Both the position numbers and the translations under genes were made by a program. A DNA stretch of 64,000 nt, from NCBI GenBank assembly GCA_029258915.1, contig JAPDJU010000012.1:62001-126000 (forward strand), in the 5' to 3' direction. The notes beneath the pieces are model-generated. The model did no database searches. It was given only the letters and a program-made list of their open reading frames with translations, and was not told where the DNA came from. Origin of the DNA: Thermoproteota archaeon (GTDB lineage: Archaea; Thermoproteota; Thermoprotei_A; EX4484-217-1). Positions 6,671-59,278 of the stretch are shown piece after piece; the stretch's first letter is position 1; every line of letters begins with the position of its first letter.

Positions 6671-6699
6671 AGTATTGACCTTCAAAACTTTTTATACTA

Positions 6700-10433: not shown

Positions 10434-10620
10434 GATAAAAACCCCATTCAAGGTATAACATTGTTTAAGCACATATTAATATTTGGGGGAGCTATTGAAG
10501 CTTAAGCTTTAAATAAGCATTACAGACCCTAATCTACTTATAATGCTGAGAATTTAATCATGTATTTTAGGTATTGTTTAAACTTTTCTAAGTAAACTAT
10601 TTCTCAGGGTGAGCTATTTT

Positions 10621-12000
10621 ATGGTGAATTTCGACATTCTAATAAAGAACGGTTTAGTTGTCACAATGGATTCTAAAAGAAGAGTTATTGAGAAAGGATA
10701 TGTCGCTATTGTTGGCGACAGAATTGCCGAAGTCGGTAAAGATTCTTTGGATAAGTCTGCTGAGAAAGTTATTGATGCTAAAGGAGCTATTGTAATGCCG
10801 GGAATTATATGTGGTCACACACACCTATACGGTATTTTGCTTAGAGGCTCTCCATGGTTCGCCAAAATAGAACCTCCAACAGACTTCATCCAGAACCTTC
10901 ATCGTATATGGTGGGCTATGGATGAAATAATGAACTACGATGATGCCTATGCTAGCGCATTAGCAGCATCCTTTGAAATGATGAAGTCTGGTGTAACACT
11001 TTTTGCAGACACGTTTTCAGGACCTAATGCTATTGAAGGTGTTCTAGATAGAATAGAGGAAGCTGTTAAAAAAGTGGGTATTAGGGGAATTATAGCTTTT
11101 GAGGCAACTGAAAGGCATAGTAAAGAAGAGGGCGAAAGGGGGATAAAAGAAAACATTAGATTTATTGAGAGAGTTAGAAGGGAGAAAGACCCATTAGTCA
11201 CAGGGATGATAAGTATTCATGCATCATTTACTGTTACAAACTGGTTACTAAAGTGGGCTAGAGAACTAGCCAATAAGTATGAAGTACCTATAACACTACA
11301 TACATCAGAGGGTCTAGTAGACCCGTACCATAACCTTGAAAGATATGGTATGAGGACTTTCGAAAGATTATATAGGGTAGGTCTTCTAGGACCTGATGTT
11401 GTAGCTGTTCATGCTGTCCATGTTATTGATGATGAGTTAAAACTTATAGCTAAGACAGGAACAAAAATAGCACATAATCCACTAAGTAATATGCTTAATG
11501 CCGTAGGAGCACCGCCAATACATAAAATGTTAGAAATGGGTATAACAGTAACAATAGGTAATGATGGATACATTTTTGATCCCTTCGAAAACATTAGAGG
11601 AGCATATTTGCTAGCTAAAGTAGCATTCAGAGATCCAAGACTAATAACGCCTTTAGAAGCAATAGAAATGGCAACAATAAACGGGGCAAAAGCTTATGGA
11701 TTAGAAGATAAGCTTGGATCCTTAGAGCCAGGTAAGAGAGCAGACATAATAATTGTAATGCCTGAACTCATGCCAACGCCGTTAAATGCAGAAACAGTTT
11801 ACGGACACTTAGTAAATACCATAGATGGCGATGATGTAAAAACGGTAATAGTTAACGGAAAGATCATTATGGAAAACAGGAAATCATTAACAATATCTGA
11901 AGAAGAAGTAAATAAGATATCACAAGAAATTGCAGCAAAATTCTGGAAAAGACTACTAAGCAAGGGAGAACACCAGTTAGACATAGTTAGACTGGAGTAA
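10621..12000 (+). CDS. amidohydrolase of the SsnA/chlorohydrolase/MTA-SAH deaminase group
   Basis: Metal motifs appear in order: GHTHLYG (HxH), a His in TLHTSEGLVD, VHAVHVID, and the catalytic Asp in IGNDGYIFDP. These define a zinc- or iron-dependent deaminase of the TrzN/AtzA/SsnA/MtaD group, acting on amino-heterocycles such as methylthioadenosine, S-adenosylhomocysteine, guanine or related purines. Length is 459 residues from ATG 10621, which lies seven bases after GGGTGAG; GTG 10609 would add four residues. SsnA is one component of bacterial purine/urate degradation loci, and this window has other components of that type. A second member of this group is at 38093-39487. The exact substrate is unresolved. 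Confidence 0.8.
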   Translation: MVNFDILIKNGLVVTMDSKRRVIEKGYVAIVGDRIAEVGKDSLDKSAEKVIDAKGAIVMPGIICGHTHLYGILLRGSPWFAKIEPPTDFIQNLHRIWWAMDEIMNYDDAYASALAASFEMMKSGVTLFADTFSGPNAIEGVLDRIEEAVKKVGIRGIIAFEATERHSKEEGERGIKENIRFIERVRREKDPLVTGMISIHASFTVTNWLLKWARELANKYEVPITLHTSEGLVDPYHNLERYGMRTFERLYRVGLLGPDVVAVHAVHVIDDELKLIAKTGTKIAHNPLSNMLNAVGAPPIHKMLEMGITVTIGNDGYIFDPFENIRGAYLLAKVAFRDPRLITPLEAIEMATINGAKAYGLEDKLGSLEPGKRADIIIVMPELMPTPLNAETVYGHLVNTIDGDDVKTVIVNGKIIMENRKSLTISEEEVNKISQEIAAKFWKRLLSKGEHQLDIVRLE

Positions 12001-24695: not shown

Positions 24696-25769
24696 TTATG
24701 TTTTAGGTTCTCCCATGGTCATGGACATAACTGCCTTCTGCACATGTAGCCTATTTTCTGCTTCTTCAAAGTACAGAGATTTCTTGTATGCATCTAAAAC
24801 TTCATCTGTTACTTCCTGACCTCTATCTGCTGGTCCACAGTGCATGTAATATGGTTTTCCAGTTTCTTCTAGAAGATCTAATGTTACTATCCAGTTCTTG
24901 AACTTATTTTGATATGCTTTAGCTCCTTCCTTATCTACAACTTCATTATATGGTGGGAAAAACCTTCTGGGACTCCATGCTTTCGGATATACGAACGTAG
25001 CCCCTTCAAAAGCTTCCTTCATATCGTGAGTTACTGTTAGGCTTCCACCGTACTGGTCAACTAGTTCCTTGGCTTTCCTCATTACTTCATCCATTAGCTC
25101 AAATCCTGGTGGATGAGCTATAACAACTTCTGCTCCAAACATGGCAGCAATTAATGTTACACTTTGAGGTACAGCTAAAGGTTTAAGCCCGCCAGAATAC
25201 GCATAGCTTACTACAAACTTTTTGCCTCTTAAATCTTTAGGCCATCCAAGAGCTTCTAAAGCTGCCATAATGTCCGCTAGCGCTTGGAACGGATGATATA
25301 CATCATCTTCCATGTTAAGTACCGGTATTGTAGCCCATTTAGCAAACTCGTTAATAACCCTGTGACCTCTGCCAATAATCCACTTTGCTGCATCACCGTA
25401 TATTCTAATAGCTATTGCGTTACCATACCTGCTAAGAACTCTTGCAACATCACCAATAGCCTCTGTTTTGTAGGGTATCATATCTTCAGGCAGAGTTGGT
25501 GTGTAGACATCTTGTGGGCTAAGGAAGTGTGCATGGCCGCCTAGCTGGAACATGCCTGCTTCAAAACTATTTCTTGTCCTCAACGATCTGTTATAGAATA
25601 GCATAAACAATGTTTTACCTTGTAAATAGGGTGTTGGCATACCCTTAGAAAACTTCTCTTTAAGATCTTTAGCTGCCTCAATAACCTTTTTTACTTCCTC
25701 TTGTGTATAGTCTATGTTCTTTAGCCAATCTCTACCTTTAAAATATCCCACATACCAGGGTGTGCTCAA
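24696..25769 (-). CDS. knotted carbamoyltransferase, YgeW-like (paralogue A)
   Basis: The enzyme has the transcarbamylase fold: the carbamoyl-phosphate site RSLRTRNSFE near residue 61, DDVYHPFQALADI near 155, and HCGPADRGQEVTDEV near 309 where ornithine transcarbamylase has HCLP. AHPPGFEL and the tail AENRLHVQKAVM place it with the knotted group (AotC/SotC/YgeW), not with the classical OTC. Length is 357 residues. TTG 25769 follows GAGGTGA at seven bases. A second, diverged copy lies 190 bases upstream in the same direction. The acceptor is unknown. With a PLP enzyme and carbamate kinase adjacent, phosphorolysis of an N-carbamoyl compound to carbamoyl phosphate is the likely direction, as inferred for YgeW. 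Confidence 0.8.
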   Translation of the reverse strand: MSTPWYVGYFKGRDWLKNIDYTQEEVKKVIEAAKDLKEKFSKGMPTPYLQGKTLFMLFYNRSLRTRNSFEAGMFQLGGHAHFLSPQDVYTPTLPEDMIPYKTEAIGDVARVLSRYGNAIAIRIYGDAAKWIIGRGHRVINEFAKWATIPVLNMEDDVYHPFQALADIMAALEALGWPKDLRGKKFVVSYAYSGGLKPLAVPQSVTLIAAMFGAEVVIAHPPGFELMDEVMRKAKELVDQYGGSLTVTHDMKEAFEGATFVYPKAWSPRRFFPPYNEVVDKEGAKAYQNKFKNWIVTLDLLEETGKPYYMHCGPADRGQEVTDEVLDAYKKSLYFEEAENRLHVQKAVMSMTMGEPKT

Positions 25770-25961
25770 AGCTTTTCACCTCGGAGGGGACACTAAGGTA
25801 TAGTATTTAAGAGTATTAAAATTCTATTATAAACCTAAACATAACTTCTAAATTAGAAACGGTAACGTATTTTTAAATGGTTTATAATAAAAAAGGAGGC
25901 CATGGAATACATGGTTAAGTAAGAAAATAAAGTCTATTACAGTTATTCTTTCTTCTTACCT

Positions 25962-27005
25962 CTAAACTAAGCCACCCATGGTTAATACGAGGATAGCGGC
26001 TTTAGTGAATAAATTGTTTTCTGCCTGTTCGTAAATTACAGATCTCGAAGAGTCCATTACAGCATCGTCTGCTTCATAGTCTCTAAGGACTGGAAGCACA
26101 TGAGTTATTATGCCATGGTCGTCCATTAAATCAAGGTCTTCAACTTTAAGCCTCCAGTCACGATATTTCTTATATATCTCTAACTCCTCCTTACCGAAAG
26201 CTGCAGCTCCAAGTTCAGCAAGTTTTCTTGAACACCAGCTTCTTGGAAATACAACATGGGCTCCTTGAAGTGCTTCCCTATAGTCGTTAACAAATTCTAC
26301 TGAGCCTCCGCTTTCTTTAGCATTTTGTTTAGCCCATTCAATATATTTTTCTGGAAGCTCAAAGCCTGGTGGATGAGCTATAACAACATCCATACCGAAC
26401 CTTGTTGCTATAAGCATGTCCGCGTTAATACTGCAATATCCTCTGATTATTGGAGCATAAGCCCACATAATAACGAATTTTTTACCTTCCACATTACCTA
26501 GTTTTTCCTCTACAGTCATAATGTCTCCAAGTGCTTGGGTTGGATGTTCCTGATCATCAGCCATGTTAATAACTGGTACTCTTGCATGTTTAGCAAATTC
26601 TCTGATAACTTTATGTCCTTCACCATACTTATAGTCTATTGCCTTGTCTAAAATTCTAATACCTACACCATTGCCAAATATTTCGTACATTTTAGCGAGG
26701 TCTTTTAGTGCTTCACCCTCCTTAACTCTAGTCATTCTAGCTTCAACATACTGTGCGTGACCTCCAAGCAGTGTCATTGCCGTTTCAAAAGCAGCCCTAG
26801 TTCTAGTTGATGGCGCATAAAATAACATTATGAAAGTTTTCTTTTCAAGATAATTAGGTAACCCCTTGGCCCCTCTGTAATAATACAGTCTTTTAAGTTC
26901 TTGAGCCAGTTCGATAGCCGCCCTTAGTTCCTCTATAGTCCATTCTTGCGTAGTTACTAGGTCTTTACCAACAAGATCTGAAATTGTAGATTTAAGGAAA
27001 ACCAT
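25962..27005 (-). CDS. knotted carbamoyltransferase, YgeW-like (paralogue B)
   Basis: The carbamoyl-phosphate motif is canonical, PSTRTRAAFET near residue 65, followed by DDQEHPTQALGDIM near 150 and WAYAPIIRGYCSIN. The last recalls the knot region of YgeW (WAYAPS). Then come AHPPGFELPEKYIEWA and HVLPVLRDYEADDAVMD, with Val where the classical enzymes have Cys in HCLP. The tail EQAENNLFTKAAIL matches the group. Length is 347 residues. GAGGTG lies ten bases before ATG 27005. It is likely transcribed from the TATA box at 27045-27052. The pair A/B may make a mixed oligomer or handle different acceptors; their residues differ at the acceptor loop. I rate the family high and the substrate open. Confidence 0.82.
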   Translation of the reverse strand: MVFLKSTISDLVGKDLVTTQEWTIEELRAAIELAQELKRLYYYRGAKGLPNYLEKKTFIMLFYAPSTRTRAAFETAMTLLGGHAQYVEARMTRVKEGEALKDLAKMYEIFGNGVGIRILDKAIDYKYGEGHKVIREFAKHARVPVINMADDQEHPTQALGDIMTVEEKLGNVEGKKFVIMWAYAPIIRGYCSINADMLIATRFGMDVVIAHPPGFELPEKYIEWAKQNAKESGGSVEFVNDYREALQGAHVVFPRSWCSRKLAELGAAAFGKEELEIYKKYRDWRLKVEDLDLMDDHGIITHVLPVLRDYEADDAVMDSSRSVIYEQAENNLFTKAAILVLTMGGLV

Positions 27006-27168: not shown

Positions 27169-28431
27169 TTAAGCATAACGCTCTCTTAAAGTTTTTTCGA
27201 AATCTTCAAGTTTAGGCTCTATTTTCGGTGCATCACCACTTACTTTCTTAACTATATCGGGATCCTTTAGACCATGCCCGGTTATCAGTACCACTACAGT
27301 ATCTCCTCTATCTATAGTTCTCTCCTCCAGCAACTTCATGTACCCTGCTAAACTAGCTACACCCGAGGGCTCGGCAAATATTCCTTCGTACTTTGCAAGC
27401 ATTTTCATAGCCTTAAGTATGAGTTCATCACTTACCTCTTCGGCTACACCATTTGTTTCATGTAGCGCCTTTAAACCTCCATCATGATCCCAAGGATACG
27501 GATCTTCGAGACCTGTAGCTATTGTTTCAGGTTTAGGCCAAGGCTTTACCTTAAATGCTTCAGCTTTCTCATTCCACGCTCTAACGAAAGGCGGATTTCC
27601 TGTAGACTGAATTGCAGCTAATTTAGGTAAGTTATCAATAAATCCTAGTTCCTTAAAGTCTCTAAACCCTTTCCAAACACTTGTAAGTAATGCAGCAGCA
27701 CCTACAGGCACTATAACCCAGTCGGGAATATTCCAATTTAGCTGTTCAACTACTTCATATGATATTGTTTTTGGCCCCTCAATTTGATACGGGTTGAAAG
27801 GTCCGAAGCTTGGACTAGGATACCATCCATACTTTTCATAAGTTAGCTTCATCATTTTCACCGTAGGATCTTCTTTGCCAAGTCCTTTAACTCTGAATAC
27901 TTTAGCACCATAGAATAATAATTGTGCAACCTTACCGTAACCTGCTTCTTCAATTACAAAAGCATATGTTTCTAGGCCTGCTTTAGCACTGTAAGCAGCT
28001 AACGCTGCTGCAGCATTACCGCTCGAAGCAGTAACTGTAACTTTATAGCCGAACTCAACAGCCATACTAACTGCAACAGACATACCACGGTCTTTAAAGC
28101 TTCCAGTAGGATTTCTTGTCTCATCCTTTAAGTACAGGTTTTTAACCCTAAGTTCTTCAGCAAGCCTTTTCGCCTTAATTAGAGGTGTTCCCCCTTCACC
28201 TAAAGTTACTATGTTCTTATCTTCGCTTACAGGCATTAACTCCCTATACCGCCACATGTAAAATCTTCTTTTCTCAAGAATATGCTTTGAAAACACTTCC
28301 TTTACTTTCTTATAATCGTAATATATGTCTAACCTACCTAAGTCCTTGTTTTCGCAAACAATAGGTTTCTGATCTAAGTAGTAGACTTTACCACATCTGC
28401 TGCATTTCAAGTATTTAACGTAGGAAACCAT
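27169..28431 (-). CDS. threonine-synthase-like fold type II PLP enzyme
   Basis: An N-terminal zinc-ribbon-like start (LKCSRCGKVYYLD) precedes the fold II PLP core: GEGGTPLIKAKRL, the PLP lysine in NPTGSFKDRGMSVAVS, SSGNAAAALAAYSAKAGL and the phosphate loop in VPVGAAALLTSVWKG. This is the layout of archaeal threonine synthase (O-phosphohomoserine to threonine). Length 420 is usual. GGGGTAAAAT precedes ATG 28431. The neighbours are not threonine genes: it lies between YgeW-like carbamoyltransferases and carbamate kinase, the place where bacteria have YgeX, a 2,3-diaminopropionate ammonia-lyase of the same fold. Threonine synthase remains the best family name, but a lyase role in this pathway is a fair alternative. 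Confidence 0.75.
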   Translation of the reverse strand: MVSYVKYLKCSRCGKVYYLDQKPIVCENKDLGRLDIYYDYKKVKEVFSKHILEKRRFYMWRYRELMPVSEDKNIVTLGEGGTPLIKAKRLAEELRVKNLYLKDETRNPTGSFKDRGMSVAVSMAVEFGYKVTVTASSGNAAAALAAYSAKAGLETYAFVIEEAGYGKVAQLLFYGAKVFRVKGLGKEDPTVKMMKLTYEKYGWYPSPSFGPFNPYQIEGPKTISYEVVEQLNWNIPDWVIVPVGAAALLTSVWKGFRDFKELGFIDNLPKLAAIQSTGNPPFVRAWNEKAEAFKVKPWPKPETIATGLEDPYPWDHDGGLKALHETNGVAEEVSDELILKAMKMLAKYEGIFAEPSGVASLAGYMKLLEERTIDRGDTVVVLITGHGLKDPDIVKKVSGDAPKIEPKLEDFEKTLRERYA

Positions 28432-28607: not shown

Positions 28608-29558
28608 ATGAGCGAGAATAAGGGTTTAGTTACAATAGCTTTAGGAGGCAATGCCTTCCTTCAAAAGGGTCAAAAAGGAACAGTTGAGGAACAGTGGGAT
28701 AATGTTGTTAAAGCTATGAAGCAAGTAGCCGACATTATAGAAAGAGGTTATAGAGTGATTTTAACTCACGGTAATGGACCTCAAGTAGGTAATATTTTGG
28801 AGTGGATGGATGCTTTAAGGGAGAAAATACCGCCATTAACAATGGATTTTGCTAATGCAATGACTCAGGGATGGATAGGTTACATGATTCAGCAAGCACT
28901 AACAAATGAGCTTAGAAGAAGAGGTATAAATAGACATGTAGTTACCGTAGTAAACCGTGTTCTCGTAAGGAAGGATGACCCAGCATTCCAAAATCCAACA
29001 AAATATGTTGGTCCATATTACGATGAGGAAACTGCTAAGAGAATTGCTAGGGAGAAAGGGTGGGCTATGAAACCTGACCCTAGAGGTGGATGGAGAAGAG
29101 TTGTTCCATCACCCGACCCTGTAGGTAATGTAGAAATAGAAGCAATAAGAACTCTACTTATAAACGGATTCATAGTCGTAGCTTCAGGTGGTGGTGGAAT
29201 ACCAGTAATTGAAGAAAATAGAGAAATTAAGGGTGTTGAAGCAGTTATTGATAAAGACCTTGCAGGTGAAAGGCTGGCTTCTCTTGTTAGAGCAGATTAT
29301 TTCGTAATAGTAACAGATGTTGAAGGAGTCTACTTGCACTTTAGAACTCCGCAGCAAAAGCTTTTAAGAAAATTAACTATTAGTGAAGCAGAAAAACTAT
29401 ACAGAGAAGGCCACTTCCCCCCTGGAAGCATGGGTCCTAAAGTATTAGCAGCAATAAGGTTCATAAAGAATGGAGGGGAAAAAGCAGCAATAGGCCACCT
29501 ATATAAGGCACTAGATATTTTAGAAGGAAGAGCAGGAACAACCATAGTACCTGATTAG
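28608..29558 (+). CDS. arcC: carbamate kinase
   Basis: Carbamate kinase converts carbamoyl phosphate and ADP to ATP, CO2 and ammonia, a substrate-level phosphorylation step. The sequence shows the family start [33 protein letters not shown], the ADP-site segments and [24 protein letters not shown] near the C-terminus. Length is 316 residues, as usual. It is divergent from the PLP enzyme and lies beside two carbamoyltransferases, and no arginine deiminase is in the window. So the carbamoyl phosphate probably comes from phosphorolysis of a carbamoyl compound by the YgeW-like enzymes. The reverse, carbamoyl phosphate synthesis, occurs in some thermophiles and cannot be excluded. Confidence 0.93.
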
Positions 29559-29684: not shown

Positions 29685-29745
29685 GACGCATATGAGACTT
29701 TTCTATAGTCCCACTGTGTTTTGACCTGTACTTTGGGTGTTTTTG

Positions 29746-31320
29746 TTGAGCGAAGAGAAGCCATCGGCAGTGTTGATGAAAGAAATTACTAAGAGGTTCC
29801 CTGGCGTAGTTGCCTTAGACAATGTAACATTCGAGGTAAGGCGAGGTGAAATACATGGTCTTCTTGGAGAAAACGGTGCTGGAAAAACAACATTAATGAA
29901 CATACTTTACGGCGTATATAGGGCTGACGAGGGAGAAATACTTATTAACGGTAAGAGAGTCTCTATAAAATCTCCTAAAGACGCTATAAAGCTTGGAATA
30001 GGTATGGTTCCCCAACATTTCAAACTTGTTATGGCACATTCTGTTGTTGAGAATGTTATTTTAGGGTTGAAGGAGTTCGGATTAGTACTTAATCTTAAGG
30101 AAGCTTCTAGGAAAATTAGGGAATTAGCTGAACGATACGGTTTTAGAATAGACCCTAAAGCTAAAATATGGCAACTATCTATGGGTGAAAGACAGTATGT
30201 GGAGCTTCTCAAAGCATTAATAAGAAACGCGAACATACTTATTCTCGACGAACCTACAACAGTTCTTACACCTCAAGAAACAAGAGAGCTATTTAAAACT
30301 CTCAAGAAAATGAAAGAAGAAGGGAGATCAATAATATTTATAACACATAAACTTGAGGAAGCATTAACAGTTTGCGATAGAATAACGGTCCTTAGAAGAG
30401 GACATGTAATAGGAACGGTTACCCCCCAGGAAGTTACGGAAGCAGACTTAGCAAAAATGATGGTTGGTAGGGAAGTTCTTTTCAGAATTAAGAGAGAACA
30501 TAGAAAAGTTATTATTGAAACTCCAATACTTAAAGTTGAAAACTTAAATGTTTTAAGCGATAAAGGTGTTTTAGCCGTAAAGAACGTTTCTTTCGAAGTT
30601 TATCCGGGTGAAATTTTCGGTATTGCAGGTATTGCTGGAAGCGGTCAAGAAGAGCTTGCAGAAGCTATTGCTGGTCTAAGAAAACCTTTAAGAGGTAAAA
30701 TAATAATCGAGGGACAGGATGTAACCGAAGCCTCACCTAAAAAAATTTTTGAACTAGGTGTTGCATACATTCCAGAGGATAGAATTGGCGTTGGAATATT
30801 ACCTAACTTAACAGTTTGGGAGAACATAGTTTTAAGACATCATAGATATCCGCCTATGGCCAAGAATGTGTTCTTATTAGATTTCAATGAAATATACGGG
30901 TTCGTGAATAGGAGAATTAAAGAACTTAACGTAATAACATCAAGCATTTTTGCCCCTGCAAAAACACTTTCAGGTGGAAACATACAAAGACTCATCTTAG
31001 CTAGAGAGCTAGCTGAAAATCCCCGGAGAAAAACTAAACTTATAATTGCAGTTTATCCTACAAGAGGTCTTGACGTTGGAGCAACAGAATATGTTAGAAA
31101 AGTGCTTTTACGGCAAAGAGATAAAGGTATAGCTGTTCTTTTAATATCTGAAGACCTTGAAGAAATACTTATGTTAAGCGATAGAATAGCTGTAATCCAT
31201 AATGGAGAAATTATGGGTATAGTTTCAGCCGAAGAAGCAAACATCGAAGAAATAGGGTTAATGATGGGTGGAGTGCTAAAGAAAACTTCTCAAAAGGTTA
31301 AAGAAAACCCTAAAACCTAA
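29746..31320 (+). CDS. BMP/nucleoside-type ABC importer, double ATPase subunit
   Basis: Two ABC domains are fused in one 524-residue chain, as in the Bmp/Nup/RnsB and sugar-type (RbsA) ATPases. The first has Walker A GENGAGKTTLMNILYG, signature LSMGERQYVELLKAL and Walker B ILILDEPTTVLTP. The second has the degenerate Walker A GIAGSGQEELAEAI and signature LSGGNIQRLILAREL. This asymmetry is normal for the class. TTG 29746 follows GGGTG at six bases, whereas GTG 29737 would overlap that site. It heads an operon with two permeases, and a Tat-exported BMP binding protein is downstream. Known members import purine nucleosides, guanosine or xanthosine, and this fits the deaminases of the window. Confidence 0.87.
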   Translation: MSEEKPSAVLMKEITKRFPGVVALDNVTFEVRRGEIHGLLGENGAGKTTLMNILYGVYRADEGEILINGKRVSIKSPKDAIKLGIGMVPQHFKLVMAHSVVENVILGLKEFGLVLNLKEASRKIRELAERYGFRIDPKAKIWQLSMGERQYVELLKALIRNANILILDEPTTVLTPQETRELFKTLKKMKEEGRSIIFITHKLEEALTVCDRITVLRRGHVIGTVTPQEVTEADLAKMMVGREVLFRIKREHRKVIIETPILKVENLNVLSDKGVLAVKNVSFEVYPGEIFGIAGIAGSGQEELAEAIAGLRKPLRGKIIIEGQDVTEASPKKIFELGVAYIPEDRIGVGILPNLTVWENIVLRHHRYPPMAKNVFLLDFNEIYGFVNRRIKELNVITSSIFAPAKTLSGGNIQRLILARELAENPRRKTKLIIAVYPTRGLDVGATEYVRKVLLRQRDKGIAVLLISEDLEEILMLSDRIAVIHNGEIMGIVSAEEANIEEIGLMMGGVLKKTSQKVKENPKT

Positions 31321-31337
31321 TCTCCATGCAGGTGTAA

Positions 31338-32501
31338 ATGATGGCTATCAGGATCCCTGGAACAAAATATGCTGTGAAAGTTGAAAAAAGACTCATCGTA
31401 AGAAGAGAAATACCAGCAATAGTATCTATAGCATCAGCGATAGCCGGTATTCTTTTAGGCGGTCTCATCTTTATAGCAGTAGGTATTTCGCCTATAGATG
31501 TTTATTCAAGAATAGGGAGAATAGCAATAAGTCCTACAGCACTTATGGGAGCTATCGAAATAGCTTTACCTATAATGTTTACATCCATGGCTTTAGTGCT
31601 CCCCTTTAGAATGGCGTTTTATAACATTGGTGGTGAAGGTCAGTTTGAAGTAGGAGCAATAGCTGCAATGATACCTGTAATATTTTATTGGAGCGGTATG
31701 GACCTACCGCAGTTTTTATATCTACCTATAATGTTTATGTTAGCATTCATAGCTGGCGGTTTCTGGGGCCTTTTACCAGCATTCTTAAGAGCTAAATGGA
31801 GGGTAAACGAAATACTAGTGACATTAATGCTTAACACTATTTCACTACAGTTAATATGGTGGCTTACAACGCCTGGAGGCCCATGGAATGAAGCAAATCC
31901 TGCATTTAAGGAAAGATATTTAGCTTATCTAAAAGAGTTAGGTGTCCATTTAATACCAGGCTTTAAAGGAACACCTGTAATCCCTGAGTTTGCTAGGCTG
32001 CCTAGAATACCTGGTACATTAGTTAATTCAGGGATATTGGTGGCTATTATTATAGCGGCAATACTGTACTTTATATGTACAAAAACGTTGCTAGGATATG
32101 AAGTTAGAGTTGTTGGTGATAGTGAGCGAGGAGCTATGTATGCTGGGATAAATTATTTGAAATTAGTTTTAATAGTAATGTTCATAAGCGGAGGTCTTGC
32201 AGGGCTAGGAGGTTTTATAGGTATTACAGCGTTTCTACCTAAGCTATCGCCTGAAATAGGTGTTGCAGGTTACGGTTACGCTGGGATAATTGTTGCATGG
32301 CTTGCAAGGTTAAACCCAATAGCCTGTCTTCTTGTTTCATTTTTCTTTGGAATATTGACAAAGTCCGCTGATCTGTTACAGCAGGAACTAAAGATTTCAA
32401 GGTTTATTGCTGTAGGTTTTGAAGGACTGATATTCATACTCTTAGTCTTGGGCGATTTCTTTGTACACTACAAGGTAAGATTAATTAAAGTTAGGAGGTA
32501 A
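31338..32501 (+). CDS. BMP/nucleoside-type ABC permease 1
   Basis: The 387-residue permease has about ten hydrophobic helices and the COG4603 type signatures: IALPIMFTSMALVLPFRMAFYNIGGEGQ, VNEILVTLMLNTIS, and GYEVRVVGDSERGAMYAGINYLK, which is the ATPase contact loop. The ATG begins 18 bases after the ATPase gene ends. It pairs with the second permease to form the channel of a nucleoside importer. Its long N-terminal extension and the 190-225 insert (LKELGVHLIPGFKGTPVIPE) are external loops seen in related permeases. Family is clear; substrate is taken from the family. Confidence 0.86.
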   Translation: MMAIRIPGTKYAVKVEKRLIVRREIPAIVSIASAIAGILLGGLIFIAVGISPIDVYSRIGRIAISPTALMGAIEIALPIMFTSMALVLPFRMAFYNIGGEGQFEVGAIAAMIPVIFYWSGMDLPQFLYLPIMFMLAFIAGGFWGLLPAFLRAKWRVNEILVTLMLNTISLQLIWWLTTPGGPWNEANPAFKERYLAYLKELGVHLIPGFKGTPVIPEFARLPRIPGTLVNSGILVAIIIAAILYFICTKTLLGYEVRVVGDSERGAMYAGINYLKLVLIVMFISGGLAGLGGFIGITAFLPKLSPEIGVAGYGYAGIIVAWLARLNPIACLLVSFFFGILTKSADLLQQELKISRFIAVGFEGLIFILLVLGDFFVHYKVRLIKVRR

Positions 32502-32506
32502 GTGCG

Positions 32507-33466
32507 ATGGTAGAACTAACTATGATAAATCAATTTCTAATAGGTGCATTAACTGTCGGTACAATATACCTCATAGCAACGCTTGGTGAAGTCCTTGCAG
32601 AACGCTCCGGGATAGTCAACTTAGGGCTTGAAGGGCTTATGGAAGTCGGTGCCACGGTAGGTATTATAGTGGCTATTTTCACGGAGAATCCATGGCTAGG
32701 TTTTCTAACAGCATTCATTACTGCAGCTATTATCTCAGTTATACATGCTTTTGCATGTATAACACTAAAACTTAATCAGTTTGCAAGCGGGTTAGCATTA
32801 TATATTTTCGGATTGGGTATCGGTATAACGTTTAGGGGATACGCTAGGGACGTAATGTTAGGGCCGAAAGAATTAATGAAAATACCTAAAATAAGACTAT
32901 ATCCTGTAAAAATACCGTTGCTAGGCGATTTACCCGTTATAGGTGCATTATTTAGCTTAAATGTCATGGCTTATTTTGCAGTTATCTTAAGTATAGTGTT
33001 CTGGTTTATACTTTTCAGAACGAGAATAGGCTTAGACATTAGGTCTGTTGGAGAAAATCCTGCAGCAGCTGATGCGGCTGGAATAAATGTTTTTAGACTA
33101 AGATACATAGCGGTGATAATTGGCGGAGGTATGGCTGGTTTATCAGGTGCATATCTTATGCTAGCACATACGCCGCAGATTATGGGTGCTCCAATAATAT
33201 TAGGAAGAGGATGGATAGCAATAGCGCTGGTAATATTCTCCTTCTGGAATCCTTTAAGAGCACTTTTAGGTGCTTATTTATTTGGAGGTTTAGAAATAGC
33301 ATATTTCTGGCTTCAAGGGATTGAAATATTTAAAGGAGTAATTCCACTACTTAAAGCAGTACCTCACGTGTCAGCAATAATACTATTAACCATTATGTCC
33401 ATTGAAGCGCTTAGAAGAAGAATAGGTGCCCCAGAAGCCCTCGGGAAACCGTATTCTAGAGAATGA
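32507..33466 (+). CDS. BMP/nucleoside-type ABC permease 2
   Basis: The 319-residue permease shows the COG1079 pattern: ERSGIVNLGLEGLMEVGATVG near the N-terminus, LDIRSVGENPAAADAAGINVFRLRYIAVI as the ATPase-contact loop, and GGGMAGLSGAYL. It starts five bases after permease 1 stops, so translation is likely coupled. Together the two form the heterodimer used by guanosine, inosine or xanthosine importers. The promoter of the binding protein lies after it, about 55-65 bases before the next gene, so that gene can be expressed at a higher level on its own. Confidence 0.86.
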   Translation: MVELTMINQFLIGALTVGTIYLIATLGEVLAERSGIVNLGLEGLMEVGATVGIIVAIFTENPWLGFLTAFITAAIISVIHAFACITLKLNQFASGLALYIFGLGIGITFRGYARDVMLGPKELMKIPKIRLYPVKIPLLGDLPVIGALFSLNVMAYFAVILSIVFWFILFRTRIGLDIRSVGENPAAADAAGINVFRLRYIAVIIGGGMAGLSGAYLMLAHTPQIMGAPIILGRGWIAIALVIFSFWNPLRALLGAYLFGGLEIAYFWLQGIEIFKGVIPLLKAVPHVSAIILLTIMSIEALRRRIGAPEALGKPYSRE

Positions 33467-33553
33467 GAGCACTTTTTATACGGCTAATTAAAAATATAGA
33501 ATATTCCTTATGCTAACTCTGCTTGAGAATTTTACAACAACCCCTTTTGTAAA

Positions 33554-33563
33554 GATTTATAAG
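33554..33563 (+). promoter_or_regulatory. TATA box of the BMP binding-protein gene
   Basis: GATTTATAAG (33554-33563) lies 55 bases before ATG 33618. A transcript would start near 33585 and carry AGGTG in a leader of about 30 bases. This explains how the binding protein can be made in excess over the transporter subunits. Confidence 0.45.
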
Positions 33564-33617
33564 CTCATATGCAGAGTTTATGTTAGGGACTTCAAGCTCT
33601 AAATAGGTGTTTTATAC

Positions 33618-34976
33618 ATGGGTGAAGTCACTAGAAGAGACTTCCTTAAGGGGCTTATAGGAGGTCTCGTTGTAGGAGCAGCATTAGGTCTGGGAGGAGG
33701 TTATGCAGCAGCACCTAAAGGTGTAGTTACAGAGACAGTAACGAGAACAGAAACAGTAACTGAAACAGTAACAGCGTCTCCCTCGCCGAGTCCTCCACCA
33801 CCCGCTAAGAAAATTAAAGCAGGATTTATTTACGTAGGGCCGATAGGAGATTATGGATGGACATATGCACATAATTCTGGAAGACTTTACGTTGAAAAAC
33901 AATTTGGAGGAACTGTGGAAACCGTATATATTGAAAGCGTTCCAGAAGCCGAAGCCTTACCTAAAATAGAGTCTTTAATTGCTGAAGGATGTAAGGTAAT
34001 ATTTACTACAAGCTTCGGCTTTATGGACCCAACACTTGAAGCTGCAAAGAAATATCCCGACGTATGGTTCTGGCATTGCTCCGGCTATAAACGATGGGAT
34101 AATATGGGAACTTACTTCGCAGAACTATATCAACCATACTACTTATGCGGTTTAGTTGCTGGAGCCATATCACAAACGCTTAAGTTCGGCTATGTTGCAG
34201 CTTATCCTATACCTGAAGTTGTAAGACACATTAACAGCTGGGTTCTAGGAATATGGGAAGGATTATGGCGTAGATATAAACGTGGAGATCTAAGCTTAGA
34301 TGATTTAAAGAAAGTAGAAGTACATGTTAAATGGTTGTACTCATGGTATGATCCGCCAGCTGCAACCGATGCTGCGAGAAGCATGGTTGAAATGTACGAT
34401 GCTGACGTACTAGCTTTTACAGAAGACTCGCCGGCAACATTACAGGTTGCTGAAGAATATCAGAAAGCAGGAAAGAAAGTTTGGAGCTATAGCCACTATA
34501 GTAACATGAGAGATTATGGTCCAACAGCCCATTTAATAGGACAATTAGTCGACTGGGGTTTAATGTACGAATACATTTTAGCATACTATCTTGCAGGGGT
34601 AGCTAGAAGTATGGACCTATGGTGGCTAATGGGTGATGGAGGAGATATTAGAGAGGGATGGAGAAAGGGTAAAGGAGCCGCGTTCATATGGCTTGATGAA
34701 TGGGGAGACTTGAAAGCAGAGCTTGCAGCTAAAGGAGTACCAGACTGGGCAATAGATCTACTACTTAAAAGAGAAACATTAATGAAAGAAAGATACTGGG
34801 ATCCATGGAGTGGAAGCTTCTGGGCACCAATATTCAAGGAATTGACAGGCAAAGAAGGAATAGTTGACAGAGAAGGGAATGTAAGAATAAAGCCGGGAGA
34901 AGTAGCAGACCATGACCTATTATGGAGTATCGACTGGTTTGTATGGGGTCTAGCAGAACCTGTACCTAAGGGCTAA
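33618..34976 (+). CDS. BMP family substrate-binding protein with Tat signal
   Basis: The N-terminus MGEVTRRDFLKGLIGGLVVG carries a textbook twin-arginine motif (RRDFLK), followed by a hydrophobic h-region and a Thr/Glu/Val then Ser/Pro linker (residues about 35-65). The mature domain starts IKAGFIYVGPIGDYGWTYAHN, the BMP/PnrA/Med start, where the purine-binding Trp/Asp region lies. At 452 residues it is about 100 residues longer than usual BMP lipoproteins, with the extra part at the C-terminus. It belongs to the importer 29746-33466 and binds nucleoside or another solute outside the cell after folding inside. TatA and TatC genes begin 110 bases downstream. Role is well supported, exact ligand is not. 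Confidence 0.85.
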   Translation: MGEVTRRDFLKGLIGGLVVGAALGLGGGYAAAPKGVVTETVTRTETVTETVTASPSPSPPPPAKKIKAGFIYVGPIGDYGWTYAHNSGRLYVEKQFGGTVETVYIESVPEAEALPKIESLIAEGCKVIFTTSFGFMDPTLEAAKKYPDVWFWHCSGYKRWDNMGTYFAELYQPYYLCGLVAGAISQTLKFGYVAAYPIPEVVRHINSWVLGIWEGLWRRYKRGDLSLDDLKKVEVHVKWLYSWYDPPAATDAARSMVEMYDADVLAFTEDSPATLQVAEEYQKAGKKVWSYSHYSNMRDYGPTAHLIGQLVDWGLMYEYILAYYLAGVARSMDLWWLMGDGGDIREGWRKGKGAAFIWLDEWGDLKAELAAKGVPDWAIDLLLKRETLMKERYWDPWSGSFWAPIFKELTGKEGIVDREGNVRIKPGEVADHDLLWSIDWFVWGLAEPVPKG

Positions 34977-38092: not shown

Positions 38093-39487
38093 TTACTCCA
38101 CGGGCCAATGTATTATTGGCTTTATTCCCGTTCTTTCCACTACTTCATGTCCTCTCTTCTCTGCTTTCTCAAGGATTTTCTCTTCACTTACTGTTAGTAT
38201 TTTCCTGTTCTCCATTACTATTTTTCCGTCTATTATTACTGTTTCTACGTCTTGCCCTTGAGCTGCGTAGACTAAGTGAGTTACAGGGTTTAGCATTGGT
38301 ATTAGGTGTGGTTTCCAGTAGTCTATGATTATTATATCTGCTTTCTTACCTACTTCTATTGACCCTATTTCCCTATCTAATCCTAGAGCTTTTGCACCAT
38401 TTATTGTCGCCATTTCTATTACTTGTTCGGCTGTTATTGCTTTAGGATCTCCATTTATTAGCGCTTGACCTAGTGCTGCTATTTTCATCTCCTCAACCAT
38501 GTCGTAATTATCATTGCTTGGCCCTCCATCGCATCCTAATCCTACATTTACTCCTTCTCTAAGCATTTTAGCTACTGGTGTTAGCCCTGAGCCAAGCTTC
38601 ATGTTACATGATGGGTTGTGGGCTACATGGGTTCCTGTTTTTGCAAGCAATTTTATTTCCTCATCAGTAACCCAAACTACATGTATTAAAACAACATTGG
38701 ACCCAAGCATTCCTATGTAATTACAGAACTCTACTGGCCTCATTCTAAACTCTTTCTTAAAATATCCTAGATCCTCCTTAGCTTCTGCTAAATGCATTGT
38801 TATCCCTATTTTCAGCTCTTTCGCCTTAGCTACTATTTCACGGTATGTTTCAATAGTGACAGCTCCAGGGGTTCTAGGTGCAAACCATACAAATATTCTA
38901 CCATGTTTACCATGCCATTTCTGATACATGTGTAAAACCTCTTTCATACCATACTCTTTAGTTTCAATAAGTCCTGAATGAATAATGCTTTTCTCTAAAG
39001 CATAACCAGGTGTGTCCATTACGTGTCTTCCGAGAACGCCTCTCATACCTATTTGTTCAAGTGCTTCAGCAATACCTTCCATACCATATCTTCCTGAAAG
39101 ACCTGCTTCAAGAAACGTTGTTGTCCCTGATTTCAGCATTTCAACCATACATAGTAGCGCACTTGTTTTACCATCTTCTTTAGTATAGTTTCCTTGAAGA
39201 GGCCAAACATAGTCTTTAAGCCAAGGTATTAACTTAACATACTGTGCCATACCTCTAATCATAGCTTGAGCCATATGTACATGGAGATCTATAAGACCTG
39301 GCATAACTATTTTTCTTGAAGCGTCAATTACAATATCTGAATATTCCTTATATTCTCTGTCAAGTTTTTCCCTCTTACCAACAGCAACTATTCTATTGCC
39401 TTCGATAGCTATTGCTCCATCCCTGATAATCCTTCTATTTTTATCTACTGTAATAAACCAGCCCCCTCTAATGTAAATATCCGCCAT
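38093..39487 (-). CDS. amidohydrolase, amino-heterocycle deaminase type (MTA/SAH/guanine deaminase-like)
   Basis: The metal sites occur in order: LIDLHVHMAQAMIRG (HxH), TMHLAEAKED, LIHVVWVTDEE and LGCDGGPSNDNYDM (catalytic Asp). They define the TrzN/AtzA/SsnA/MtaD class with 464 residues. The metal-near HNPSCNMKLGSG is also typical. The product should hydrolyse an amino group from a purine-like ring. It resembles the enzyme at 10621-12000 only at the family level, so the two probably have different substrates; guanine deaminase, SAH or MTA deaminase are candidates. It is divergent from adenine deaminase across about 330 bases. ATG 39487 has no strong ribosome binding site. Confidence 0.8.
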   Translation of the reverse strand: MADIYIRGGWFITVDKNRRIIRDGAIAIEGNRIVAVGKREKLDREYKEYSDIVIDASRKIVMPGLIDLHVHMAQAMIRGMAQYVKLIPWLKDYVWPLQGNYTKEDGKTSALLCMVEMLKSGTTTFLEAGLSGRYGMEGIAEALEQIGMRGVLGRHVMDTPGYALEKSIIHSGLIETKEYGMKEVLHMYQKWHGKHGRIFVWFAPRTPGAVTIETYREIVAKAKELKIGITMHLAEAKEDLGYFKKEFRMRPVEFCNYIGMLGSNVVLIHVVWVTDEEIKLLAKTGTHVAHNPSCNMKLGSGLTPVAKMLREGVNVGLGCDGGPSNDNYDMVEEMKIAALGQALINGDPKAITAEQVIEMATINGAKALGLDREIGSIEVGKKADIIIIDYWKPHLIPMLNPVTHLVYAAQGQDVETVIIDGKIVMENRKILTVSEEKILEKAEKRGHEVVERTGIKPIIHWPVE

Positions 39488-39820
39488 AATAAGAGACCAC
39501 CAAGTAAAATAATTTAAGAAACATATGTAAAAGTAATGGTTAATTTAAATTTCTAAAAGTAATATTTCATATCTTTGACTTCATAACTGTATTTATTATT
39601 TCATTAACACTTACTTTATTACCTAAGATTTAAGTAGAGCTTTTTAACAACACAAGGTTCTCTTGGTGTTGAGGTTTAAACACGTCATTAAAAACTATAT
39701 ACTTTACACGCTGTGTTATGGTAATTTAGGGATGTGTATAAAGCTAATATAGTTGATAACATATTTAGTCTACAAAAAGGTTGTTCAAAACTTAATTTCT
39801 AAACCAAGGTGTATTACATA
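39488..39820. other. divergent intergenic region between two deaminase genes
   Basis: About 330 AT-rich bases separate the leftward amidohydrolase from adenine deaminase. An imperfect TACACGCTGTGTTA segment (39705-39718) and a nearby TTAAAAACTATATACT box (about 39688-39703) may belong to the rightward promoter. I saw no coding frame, RNA gene or clean repeat. Confidence 0.4.
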
Positions 39821-41608
39821 ATGTATATTAGTGAACTTAATGCTGGGATTATGCGGGAACTTGTTTTAACAGCTTTAGGTAAATTAAAAGCTGATTTAGT
39901 TTTGAAAAATGCTTCTCTAGTTAACGTTTACACTTCTGAAGTTATTGAAAACATAAGTATTGGTATAAAAAATGGTAGAATCGCATATGTTGGTGAAAAC
40001 ATTAAACATTTAATAGGTTCTTCAACTCAGGTTATTGATGTTAAAGGAATGTATGTTACCCCTGGTTTCATGGATTCTCATATTCATATTGAAAGTAGTA
40101 TGTTAACTCCATTAGGATTTTCTGAAGCCGTACTACCTCATGGTACAACAGCTGTTTTCGTGGATCCTCATGAAATAGCTAATGTTCTGGGTGTTAAAGG
40201 TGTTGAGTTTTTCATTAAAGAAGCATTGGAAGCCCCAATCAGAATTTTTATAAATGTTCCATCATGTGTTCCATCAACACCGGAGGATACCACTGGAGCC
40301 ATCTTAGGATATAAGGAAGTTGAACATTTGCTTAAAAACCCGTATACCATAGGGTTAGCTGAGGTAATGGATTTCTATGGTGTTTTAGCTTTAAGAGAAG
40401 ATATTATTAGGAAAATTGAAGCTGCACATAAGTTAGGTAAGGTCGTGGACGGACATGCACCAAGCCTTTCAGGTAAGTATCTTCAAGCATATATCGCTGC
40501 AGGAATATCCTCAGACCATGAGAGTATAAAAGCTGAAGAAGTTATTGAAAAAGCTAGGTTAGGAATGTATGTTATGCTTAGAGAAGGCAGTGCATGGAGA
40601 GATTTAGCTAAAACTGTAAAAGCAATTACTGAGGGAAAGATAGATACACGAATGCTACTTTTAGCAAGTGATGATAGGAATCCTTATAATATAGTTCATG
40701 AAGGTCATATGGACTATCTTATTAGAAAAATTATTAGCCTCGGTGTAGATCCTATTAAAGCTATTCAAATGGCAACGTTGAACATAGCTTTAAGGTTTAA
40801 AGTGGATGACCATTTAGGGGGAATAGCGCCGGGCAAATTAGCTGATATGGTTGTTCTAGATAGTTTAGATAAGGTTAATGTAAAAATGGTTTTCATAGAT
40901 GGTAAACTTTTAGCTAAAGAAGGTAAGCCATTATGGCATGTACCTGAAGGTTACAAAGCGCCTAAACACCTTTATGAAACAATTAATATTAAAAGAAAAA
41001 TTTCTCCTGAAGACTTCAAAATAAAAGCTCCAATAGTAGAAGGCTCTGTTAAAGTTAAGGTTATAGGTATAGTTCCTGAAAAAGCTGTAACTAAAAAACT
41101 TATAATGAATATACATGTTAAAAACGGGTATGTGCTGTCTGAAATTAAAAGAGATATTTTAAAAATTGCAATGATTGAAAGGTATAGCGGTAATGGACGT
41201 GTAGGTGTGGGGTTAGTTCACGGATTCGGATTTAAATATGGAGCATTAGCCTCATCAATAGCTCACGATAGCCATAACATATTAATTGTCGGTGTAAGTG
41301 AAAAAGACATGGCAACTGCTGCTAATAAGGTAATAGAAATCGGTGGTGGAATAGTCTTCGCCGCCGACGGGAAAATAAGAGCAGCTGTAGAACTTCCTAT
41401 TGCAGGCATTTTAAGTGACAAACCTGTGAAAGAAGTTGTAGAAGAATTAGAGAAACTAACTTTAGAAACAAAGAAAGCCGGCTCTAAACTTAGTGAACCA
41501 TACATGACGCTTTCAATTTTAGGTTTAATTGTTATTCCAGAGTTAAGAATAACTGATAAAGGATTATTTGATGTGGTAAATAATAAATTTACAAGTTTAT
41601 TTGCATAA
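39821..41608 (+). CDS. ade: adenine deaminase (Ade family amidohydrolase)
   Basis: Adenine deaminase converts adenine to hypoxanthine and ammonia. The sequence has the family hallmarks: GFMDSHIHIESSMLTPLGF (metal site), GTTAVFVDPHEIANVLG, DGHAPSLSGKYLQAYIAAGISSDHES, LLLASDDRNP, and the C-terminal adenine-deaminase domain with VGLVHGFGFKYGALASSIAHDSHN and AADGKIRAAVELPIAGILS. Length is about 595 residues, as expected for the Bacillus-type enzyme. I chose ATG 39821, ten bases after AAGGTG; GTG 39809 would add four residues. The cyclic amidase gene follows 14 bases later. It supplies the first committed step of adenine breakdown. Confidence 0.93.
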   Translation: MYISELNAGIMRELVLTALGKLKADLVLKNASLVNVYTSEVIENISIGIKNGRIAYVGENIKHLIGSSTQVIDVKGMYVTPGFMDSHIHIESSMLTPLGFSEAVLPHGTTAVFVDPHEIANVLGVKGVEFFIKEALEAPIRIFINVPSCVPSTPEDTTGAILGYKEVEHLLKNPYTIGLAEVMDFYGVLALREDIIRKIEAAHKLGKVVDGHAPSLSGKYLQAYIAAGISSDHESIKAEEVIEKARLGMYVMLREGSAWRDLAKTVKAITEGKIDTRMLLLASDDRNPYNIVHEGHMDYLIRKIISLGVDPIKAIQMATLNIALRFKVDDHLGGIAPGKLADMVVLDSLDKVNVKMVFIDGKLLAKEGKPLWHVPEGYKAPKHLYETINIKRKISPEDFKIKAPIVEGSVKVKVIGIVPEKAVTKKLIMNIHVKNGYVLSEIKRDILKIAMIERYSGNGRVGVGLVHGFGFKYGALASSIAHDSHNILIVGVSEKDMATAANKVIEIGGGIVFAADGKIRAAVELPIAGILSDKPVKEVVEELEKLTLETKKAGSKLSEPYMTLSILGLIVIPELRITDKGLFDVVNNKFTSLFA

Positions 41609-41622
41609 ACGGTGGTTAATCT

Positions 41623-42981
41623 ATGCTATTAGACTTAAAAATAGTTAATGCTAAAATAGCTACTATTAGCGGTATTTACGAAGGGGCCATAGGTGTTTCT
41701 AAGGGTAAGATAAAAGCTATAGTTAAGAACGGAGATGTGTTGAAAGCTGAAAAACAAATAGATGCTAAAGGAAAACTTATTTTGCCAGGAGCTATAGACG
41801 TCCATGCACACATATATGACCCTAAATTTGTTCATAGAGAAGATTTTGAACATGGAACATTAGCTGCTATTTTTGGAGGAGTAACTACGGTTATAATTAT
41901 GCCTTTAGACACTCACATAGACAATGTTAACATACTTAAGCACTATATTGAGGTTGGTGAAAGAGAATCTTACACGGATTTCTCAATTCAAGGAGGCTTC
42001 GTTAAATCAGATAACATTTCCAATGTTGAAGAATTAGCTAAAAATGGTGTTAAAGCATTTAAAATGTTCACATGTAAACCATATATGGCTTCAGATTACG
42101 TATTTATTAGAATGCTTGAGTTAACTAGGAAACTGGACATTTTAATTACAGTTCATGCTGAAGATGAAGCTATTTTAGAGCACAGTATTAGAAAGGCTTT
42201 AGAAACTGGACGGAAAGACCCAATAATACATCATATTTCAAGACCTCCTTTAGCTGAAAAAGCAGCTATAGAAAAACTTCTTACATACCTTGAATATATA
42301 AGTGGAAACATGCATTTATGCCATATTACGACAAGCTATGCTGTAAAAGCTATTGAAGAAGGGAAAAGGAAAGGATTAAACATATCTGCCGAAGTATGTA
42401 CACATCATCTATTATTTACATATAATGATGCTGAAAAATGGGGTCCCTATTTAAAAATGAACCCGCCGCTAAGATCAAGAGAACATGTAGAAGCCTTATG
42501 GAAGGGACTACAAAATGGAGTAATAGATACTGTAACCACAGATCATGCACCAGGAAGCAGGGATGAAAAGGAAGTAGGATGGGAAGATATATGGAGGGCA
42601 TGGGGTGGCGTTGCTGGAGTAGAAACTTTATTGCCAATAATGTTTACCTATGGTTTTAAGCGTAATATTTTAAGCTTAGAAGATATTATAAGGCTCTTAT
42701 CTTTTAATCCCGCTAAGATATTTGGCTTACAGTTTAAAGGAGATATTAAGCCAGGTTTAGATGCTGATCTTCTAATAGTAGATCCCGGTTTTGCTAAGAA
42801 AGTTAAAGCCGAAGATTTACACTATAAGAATCCGTGGACACCTTATGAAGGTTTAAATCTTTATGGTTGGCCTGAAGTAGTTATCCTCAGAGGTAATGTT
42901 ATCATTGAAAACAGTGAGCTTATAGAAGTTAAAGGTTTAGGCAGATTTATTAAAGCAGCTAATGCATTTTCGAGAATATGA
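41623..42981 (+). CDS. cyclic amidohydrolase, allantoinase/hydantoinase/dihydroorotase family
   Basis: Cyclic amide hydrolase with a binuclear metal centre: AIDVHAHIYDP (HxH), the carbamylated Lys in VKAFKMFTCKPY, VHAEDEAIL, ICHITT-like LCHITTSYAVKAI, AEVCTHHLLF and the catalytic Asp in TTDHAPGSRDEKE. NPWTPYEGLNLYGWP near residue 405 is a segment typical of allantoinases. The 452-residue length fits. It is 14 bases after adenine deaminase and should be co-transcribed. It may open a hydantoin, dihydropyrimidine or ureide ring formed from purine breakdown, giving an N-carbamoyl product for the YgeW-like enzymes. The bacterial counterpart in this setting is HyuA. Exact substrate unresolved. Confidence 0.82.
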   Translation: MLLDLKIVNAKIATISGIYEGAIGVSKGKIKAIVKNGDVLKAEKQIDAKGKLILPGAIDVHAHIYDPKFVHREDFEHGTLAAIFGGVTTVIIMPLDTHIDNVNILKHYIEVGERESYTDFSIQGGFVKSDNISNVEELAKNGVKAFKMFTCKPYMASDYVFIRMLELTRKLDILITVHAEDEAILEHSIRKALETGRKDPIIHHISRPPLAEKAAIEKLLTYLEYISGNMHLCHITTSYAVKAIEEGKRKGLNISAEVCTHHLLFTYNDAEKWGPYLKMNPPLRSREHVEALWKGLQNGVIDTVTTDHAPGSRDEKEVGWEDIWRAWGGVAGVETLLPIMFTYGFKRNILSLEDIIRLLSFNPAKIFGLQFKGDIKPGLDADLLIVDPGFAKKVKAEDLHYKNPWTPYEGLNLYGWPEVVILRGNVIIENSELIEVKGLGRFIKAANAFSRI

Positions 42982-57616: not shown

Positions 57617-58006
57617 ATGGGACCATATGAAGTAGTATATTCTAGAAGAGCACCTAAACCTATAGGGCCGTACAGCCAGGCAGTTAAAGTAGGCGATTTC
57701 CTATTTATTTCAGGCCAACTACCTGTGGATCCTTCTACAGGAGAAATAATTAAAGACAATTTTGAAAAGGCTGTAAAAACTGTTCTTGAAAACATAAAGT
57801 CCATTGTTGAAGAAGCTGGAGGTTCTTTAAACAATATAGTCAAAGTTACAGTGTATTTGAAAGATATAGGTAAATTTAAAAAGTTTAACGAAGTATATAC
57901 ACAGTATTTTAAAGATAGATATCCTGCTAGAGTTGTTGTTGAAGTTTCAAAAATACCTAAAGATGCTGATTTAGAAGTTGAAGCTATAGCTTATATTGGA
58001 AGGTAA
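57617..58006 (+). CDS. ridA: Rid family enamine/imine deaminase
   Basis: RidA hydrolyses reactive 2-aminoacrylate and related enamines made by PLP enzymes such as threonine or serine dehydratase. The signatures are [45 protein letters not shown] and [22 protein letters not shown], with the Arg of PARVVVEV that contacts the carboxylate. Length is 129 residues, as in the family; it works as a trimer. ATG 57617 is clear. It is followed eight bases later by MoeA 1, a linkage without obvious metabolic meaning. The PLP enzyme at 27169 could be a source of its substrate. Confidence 0.93.
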
Positions 58007-58013
58007 AACAGTA

Positions 58014-59267: not shown

Positions 59268-59278
59268 GTGCTTAAATA

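Follow-up and report, generated by a model that had tools for sequence, protein, structure and literature searches.

A diverged pair of knotted-type carbamoyltransferases with a possible role in archaeal reductive urate degradation

Why would an archaeal genome keep two strongly diverged carbamoyltransferase genes side by side? The genes, A and B, lie in a window of 64,000 nt from a Thermoproteota archaeon (assembly GCA_029258915.1, contig JAPDJU010000012.1, 62,001-126,000 of the forward strand; Table 1). An initial annotation described a diverged carbamoyltransferase pair, held that arginine synthesis does not need both copies, and read their retention in tandem as a sign of two acceptors or of an obligate hetero-oligomer. 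The description stands: both ORFs are intact, the proteins are 37% identical, and each matches the OTCace_N and OTCace domains far above the Pfam cut-offs, with E-values of about 1e-30 or better. The motifs it drew on are also literally present: A has RSLRTR and HCGP, B has STRTR and HVLP, and the two share AHPPGFEL.

Table 1. Carbamoyltransferase genes A and B and selected genes of the window (window coordinates)
Feature	Position	Strand	Remarks
SsnA-family amidohydrolase	10609..12000	+	31% identity to E. coli SsnA; 387 bits against a cut-off of 444
Carbamoyltransferase A	24696..25769	-	357 aa, TTG start, ORF intact
Carbamoyltransferase B	25962..27005	-	347 aa, ORF intact
Fold-type II PLP enzyme, threonine-synthase family	27169..28431	-	Candidate diaminopropionate ammonia-lyase, replacing YgeX
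Carbamate kinase (arcC)	28608..29558	+	Above curated cut-off; 42% identity to E. coli YqeA
ABC transporter (ATPase, two permeases, PnrA/BMP-type binding protein)	29737..34976	+	
Amidohydrolase related to deoxyadenosine/guanine deaminases	38093..39487	-	Adjoins B in loci L088 and L115
Adenine deaminase	39809..41608	+	Above curated cut-off
Dihydropyrimidinase/hydantoinase-like amidohydrolase	41623..42981	+	HyuA candidate, 27% identity to E. coli HyuA
Two MoeA-type molybdenum cofactor genes	57996..61255	+	

Family and fold of the two proteins

The motifs of A and B are not products of chance or error, because they are conserved among orthologs: 14 orthologs of A show little or no variation in SLRTR, HPFQ and HCGP, and the same holds for STRTR, HPTQ and HV[LM]P in 15 orthologs of B. 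Both proteins conform to the transcarbamylase motifs SxRT, HPxQ and HxLP, except that the Leu of the third is replaced in A (HCGP). AHPPGFEL corresponds to AHPEGYDL in YgeW and is a conserved segment common to these proteins that does not mark the knot. Knotted transcarbamylases are recognized by a proline-rich loop and an extended 120's loop (Shi et al., PMC4581275), and both elements are present in A and B. AlphaFold models of the two proteins (pLDDT 96.2 for A and 93.9 for B) have knotted AOTC chains as their best PDB match, with TM scores of 0.84-0.93. Loops and models support the knotted type for both proteins, whose C-terminal domains would carry the trefoil knot, in agreement with the initial annotation.

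A and B score below the cut-offs of all the curated NCBIfam models tested (OTC, AOTC, PTC, ATC and YgeW). The best curated match is the AOTC model, with 263 bits for A and 223 for B against a cut-off of 288. The PTC model gives 190 and 188 bits against a cut-off of 500, where a plasmid PTC reaches 571, and the YgeW models (TIGR03316 and PRK07200) give about 139-147 against 453-500. The extra terminal helices and long 240's loop of YgeW are missing from both proteins. The OTC motif DxxxSMG, which reads DVWVSMG in true OTCs of related genomes, is absent from A and B, as is the ATC motif RxQxxER, and the ATC score falls below its curated cut-off. The AOTC markers E92, N185 and K302 are absent as well, A having T102, P197 and E319 at these positions. 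With AOTC and SOTC, the two proteins share the knot-type loops, SxRTR and HPxQ, and A also the extended 80's loop and an E/K pair; they differ in lacking the acceptor-site Trp and in lying outside any arginine cluster. Neither has a Trp in the 80's loop, in contrast to SOTC (Trp75, with H176/R178/R278), which was outside the alignment.

In a maximum-likelihood tree of 48 rows, from which SOTC and UGTC were left out, A and B form separate clades (support 100/99 and 100/100). They group with YgeW and AOTC (99/92), outside OTC and ATC, so neither copy falls inside true OTC or AOTC. The order of A and B relative to YgeW has support of 92/54 and 55/21, with AOTC and YgeW on long branches. Each clade contains a Thermoproteota part and a Nitrososphaerota part, and thus either A and B parted early or the two genes have moved together. 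A recent tandem duplication is ruled out by the tree and by the many genomes in which A and B are unlinked. The genome also encodes a separate OTC (locus L001) and a separate ATC (locus L002), placed by the tree with OTC and ATC; A and B are therefore not needed for arginine or pyrimidine synthesis, and the earlier remark that arginine synthesis does not require both copies is borne out. We conclude that each of the two proteins represents a new knotted-type carbamoyltransferase subfamily.

Gene neighbourhood and distribution

The function of A and B is best approached through gene context, as both are recurrently linked to genes of the reductive urate (yanthine) pathway, demonstrated biochemically in E. 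coli and C. difficile (PMC12507026, PMC12990295). In the bacterial route, urate is converted by XdhD to yanthine, which is dearomatized by YgfK or UacX, and ring opening by SsnA and HyuA yields 2,3-diureidopropionate. YgeW then phosphorolyses one ureido group, a reaction that is itself thermodynamically weak, YgeY hydrolyses the other, and YgeX splits diaminopropionate (PMC12507026, PMC12990295).

The SsnA-like gene, whose family is a marker of this pathway, lies 13 kb from A and B. On the same contig, genes for XdhD, its 2Fe-2S and FAD subunits and UacX are found upstream of the window, at a distance of 8 to 14 kb; the genome has no Ald_Xan_dh_C gene other than XdhD, and the UacX-like reductase carries two 4Fe-4S motifs. 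The identities of SsnA, UacX, XdhD and HyuA rest on homology together with linkage, their scores being below curated cut-offs. The two MoeA-type genes possibly serve the XdhD-type enzyme, whose gene lies some 10-14 kb upstream of the window. The ABC transporter is a probable nucleoside or nucleobase importer, and a transporter of the PnrA/BMP type recurs in A loci L096 and L127. A tungsten-type aldehyde:ferredoxin oxidoreductase, GAPOR-related, is also encoded in the window (4685-6685; 623 bits against a curated cut-off of 1300).

An ortholog of the PLP enzyme next to B is near A in 35 of 54 A loci. It scores above the NCBI threonine synthase cut-offs despite its purine catabolic cluster, and it is probably misnamed by these family models; a role as the sole threonine synthase was rejected, given two other threonine-synthase-like genes in the genome. 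A CysK/CBS-like PLP enzyme is encoded at L013:2520-3548 (C7:47520-48548), and enzymes of this kind recur beside A, the PLP enzyme and XdhD in 15 of the 54 loci. The CysK/CBS-like enzyme may be the lyase that splits diaminopropionate, or its substrate may be a ureido intermediate. A search of the class, run without a positive control, turned up no canonical YgeX.

The same associations are seen in other archaea. In 13 loci of one family, B and A are followed by carbamate kinase, and most of these loci continue into SsnA-UacX-PLP. The operon B-A-carbamate kinase-SsnA-UacX-PLP of the sister family, with carbamate kinase directly after A, is seen in L045-L049, L076-L085, L087, L134 and L139, with some of these loci truncated where the contig stops. 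In Caldarchaeales and Nitrososphaerales, A and B occur with XdhD, carbamate kinase and PLP genes, B lying beside XdhD-type genes in L092, L093, L123, L127, L132 and L136. Elsewhere, A or B adjoins genes for XdhD, a luciferase-family reductase, HyuA-like proteins, adenine deaminase or nucleoside transporters. Among the 54 A loci that span 8 kb or more, 46 had at least one of B, PLP, CysK-like, carbamate kinase, SsnA, UacX and XdhD nearby, and 8 had no pathway neighbour. The luciferase-family (F420-type) reductase is present in Caldarchaeales and Nitrososphaerales A loci (L108:14720-15724, L112, L113, L127, L136 and L138), in several A loci near SsnA. It resembles the Chloroflexota variant of the pathway, for which Li 2025 proposed a luciferase-family yanthine reductase (PMC12507026). 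SsnA is linked genetically with XdhD, the UacX or luciferase-family reductase, OTCace-family, YgeY and PALP genes; linkage with HyuA comes from few loci. In the urate gene run of genome G087, an uncharacterized ORF of 376 aa sits between SsnA and carbamate kinase (L142:15297-16427).

We screened 229 genomes of the class, in which A and B occupy nearly the same set. Among the 122 good genomes (at least 90% completeness and at most 5% contamination), A is present in 30, 29 of which also have B, and B alone is found in none. SsnA and a close XdhD are each present in 28 good genomes, all within the same 30. The co-occurrence of B, SsnA and XdhD with A has a Fisher p < 1e-24 with kinship ignored, and these associations should not be counted as independent support. 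The two genes adjoin each other in one family, while in many genomes the distance between them is 25 to 640 kb. What is general is their co-occurrence, and the tandem arrangement noted by the initial annotation is not. A contig scan with the A alignment found 67 loci, every one of them archaeal, which include Desulfurococcales, Caldarchaeales, Hadesarchaea and Nitrososphaerales; the scan relies on a pair of short peptide patterns and may overlook distant relatives. At many loci beyond the class, for example in Hadesarchaea, no B lies within 10 kb of A.

Taken with the neighbouring genes, these distributions make it likely that the A/B loci encode an archaeal pathway for the reductive breakdown of purines (urate, yanthine). 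The families of the pathway mapped by Li 2025, in bacteria only (PMC12507026), are all found here: XdhD-type, UacX or luciferase-family reductase, SsnA, HyuA-like, OTCace, carbamate kinase, PALP and YgeY. The archaeal version differs in its hosts (Thermoproteota and Nitrososphaerota), in having two carbamoyltransferases, in sometimes missing YgeY, and in the apparent replacement of YgeX by threonine-synthase- or CysK-like enzymes. A and B share with YgeW the knotted group, about 30% identity and the pathway neighbours XdhD, SsnA, carbamate kinase, PALP enzyme and HyuA-like; A in addition retains the proline-rich loop KPL.VPQ and the acceptor-site lysines. They differ from YgeW in being two copies rather than one and in having HCGP (A) or HVLP (B) instead of HCLP.

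Active sites and a possible division of labour

Alignment with E. coli YgeW indicates that A keeps the carbamoyl-phosphate core (S62, R64, T65, R122, H159 and Q162) and has R340 at the AENR position. The acceptor site of A also follows YgeW, K196, K263, D315 and E319 corresponding to K203, K270, D334 and E344, and E154 aligns with AOTC E144 and YgeW Q160. The alignment likewise retains the carbamoyl-phosphate core of B (S66, T67, R68, T69, R117, H154 and Q157). Its acceptor site departs from that of YgeW, with three of the four YgeW residues changed. R188 and R255 replace the two lysines; A149 replaces Glu/Gln, and V303 replaces Cys. The 80's loop is extended in A, and short in B with an invariant R93. 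At the position matching R93, other family members contact carbamoyl phosphate from the adjacent subunit (PMC4581275). Carbamoyl-phosphate residues are partly lost in one copy, as B has AENN for AENR and hence no C-terminal carbamoyl-phosphate arginine; the core remains, together with R93. SxRTR, HPxQ and the strand-4 arginine are retained in both proteins, and judged by sequence A and B should both bind carbamoyl phosphate. Their acceptor sites, as aligned, differ in a way that fits two acceptors or two regiospecificities. Two acceptors, one of the explanations first offered for the pair, appears the most likely; the purine context had been missed.

We propose that A and B diverged long ago and are knotted-type carbamoyltransferases devoted to reductive urate breakdown in archaea, an overall explanation for which the chances appear evenly balanced. 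Urate would be reduced to yanthine and then dearomatized, and both rings would be opened to give 2,3-diureidopropionate. Of its 2- and 3-ureido groups, one would be phosphorolysed by A and the other by B, releasing carbamoyl phosphate twice, and carbamate kinase would convert this to ATP. Diaminopropionate would be split into pyruvate and ammonia by the PLP enzyme or by the CysK-like enzyme. Where present, as in the source genome, a YgeY-type hydrolase would offer an optional route by hydrolysis instead. That A and B divide the two steps between them in this way is about an even bet. Somewhat more tentatively, if the different regiospecificities of A and B conserve both ureido groups as carbamoyl phosphate, the yield may be 2 ATP per purine ring against 1 in E. 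coli, and loss of YgeY would be allowed.

The distribution of YgeY bears on this proposal from both sides. A YgeY-family hydrolase is encoded in 18 of the 30 good A genomes, including the source genome (C4:148945; 340 bits against a cut-off of 321); G087 and G001 score 360 and 333 bits. In G087 and G079, YgeY forms one run with PLP, CysK-like, UacX and SsnA genes. The other 12 good genomes, which have A and B, contain no YgeY even at loose thresholds, with only remote M20 proteins found, and YgeY is thus dispensable beside A and B. Its retention in 18 A genomes means, in turn, that removal of the second ureido group does not strictly require B there, and B might act on a different acceptor. 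A strict version of the proposal, in which YgeY is absent, was rejected because YgeY is present on contig C4 of the source genome and in others. The M20 gene straddling the window start (L013:16484-17728) was rejected as YgeY, being DapE-like (571 bits).

Competing explanations and implications

The strongest alternative is that A is an archaeal counterpart of YgeW working with YgeY, and that B serves another acceptor such as N-carbamoyl-beta-alanine from pyrimidine breakdown. YgeY in the source genome and the YgeW acceptor residues, kept in A and changed at three positions in B, agree with it, and catabolic beta-alanine transcarbamylases have been proposed (PMC4581275). However, B is tied to purine-specific genes (XdhD, SsnA and A) with no pyrimidine-specific neighbour recognized, and the 12 good genomes with A and B would be left without a known enzyme for the second ureido group once YgeY is missing. 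We regard this alternative as unlikely.

A and B might instead form an obligate mixed trimer in which the 80's loop of one subunit completes the active site of the other. Transcarbamylase active sites are shared between subunits (PMC4581275), and the missing C-terminal arginine of B, its unusual 80's-loop arginine and the strict co-occurrence of the pair all point this way. Each copy nevertheless keeps SxRTR, HPxQ and the strand-4 arginine, and the genes are unlinked in many genomes (25 to 640 kb), which makes a hetero-oligomer improbable. The reaction could also run in reverse, carbamate kinase making carbamoyl phosphate and A and B carbamoylating diaminopropionate-type acceptors for biosynthesis. 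Carbamate-kinase-like enzymes of some hyperthermophilic archaea do produce carbamoyl phosphate. Diaminopropionate transcarbamylases are present in antibiotic pathways (PMC4581275). The linked genes, though, are for uptake, deamination, reduction and ring opening, and the characterized bacterial pathway is catabolic, so a biosynthetic direction is decidedly improbable. That A and B are drifted arginine, agmatine or polyamine enzymes, anabolic or catabolic, is scarcely credible and was set aside: their top single-family scores are to the AOTC and OTC models and carbamate kinase is adjacent, but these scores are all below curated cut-offs, DxxxSMG is absent, A and B lie outside the OTC clade in a genome with its own OTC, and it is purine genes that recur beside them.

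The reductive urate pathway was elucidated in 2025 and described as bacterial (PMC12507026). The loci reported here place it in Thermoproteota and Nitrososphaerota (Desulfurococcales, Caldarchaeales and Nitrososphaerales), and a literature search, with most subscription journals outside its scope, found no description of it in archaea. If both ureido steps are indeed phosphorolytic, these archaea would gain more from fermenting purines than E. coli does. The order in which the two ureido groups of 2,3-diureidopropionate are cleaved is a stated open question (PMC12990295), and a specialized A/B pair makes this regiospecificity directly testable. Current family models would give arginine- or threonine-type names to A, B and the PLP enzyme next to them. 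In a Hadesarchaeon, a third knotted-type carbamoyltransferase lies directly downstream of A (L126:3134-4117), with HCLP, a proline-rich loop and no DxxxSMG; it scores above the NCBI OTC cut-offs (311 against 306 and 295 against 281 bits), and automatic annotation would therefore name it OTC.
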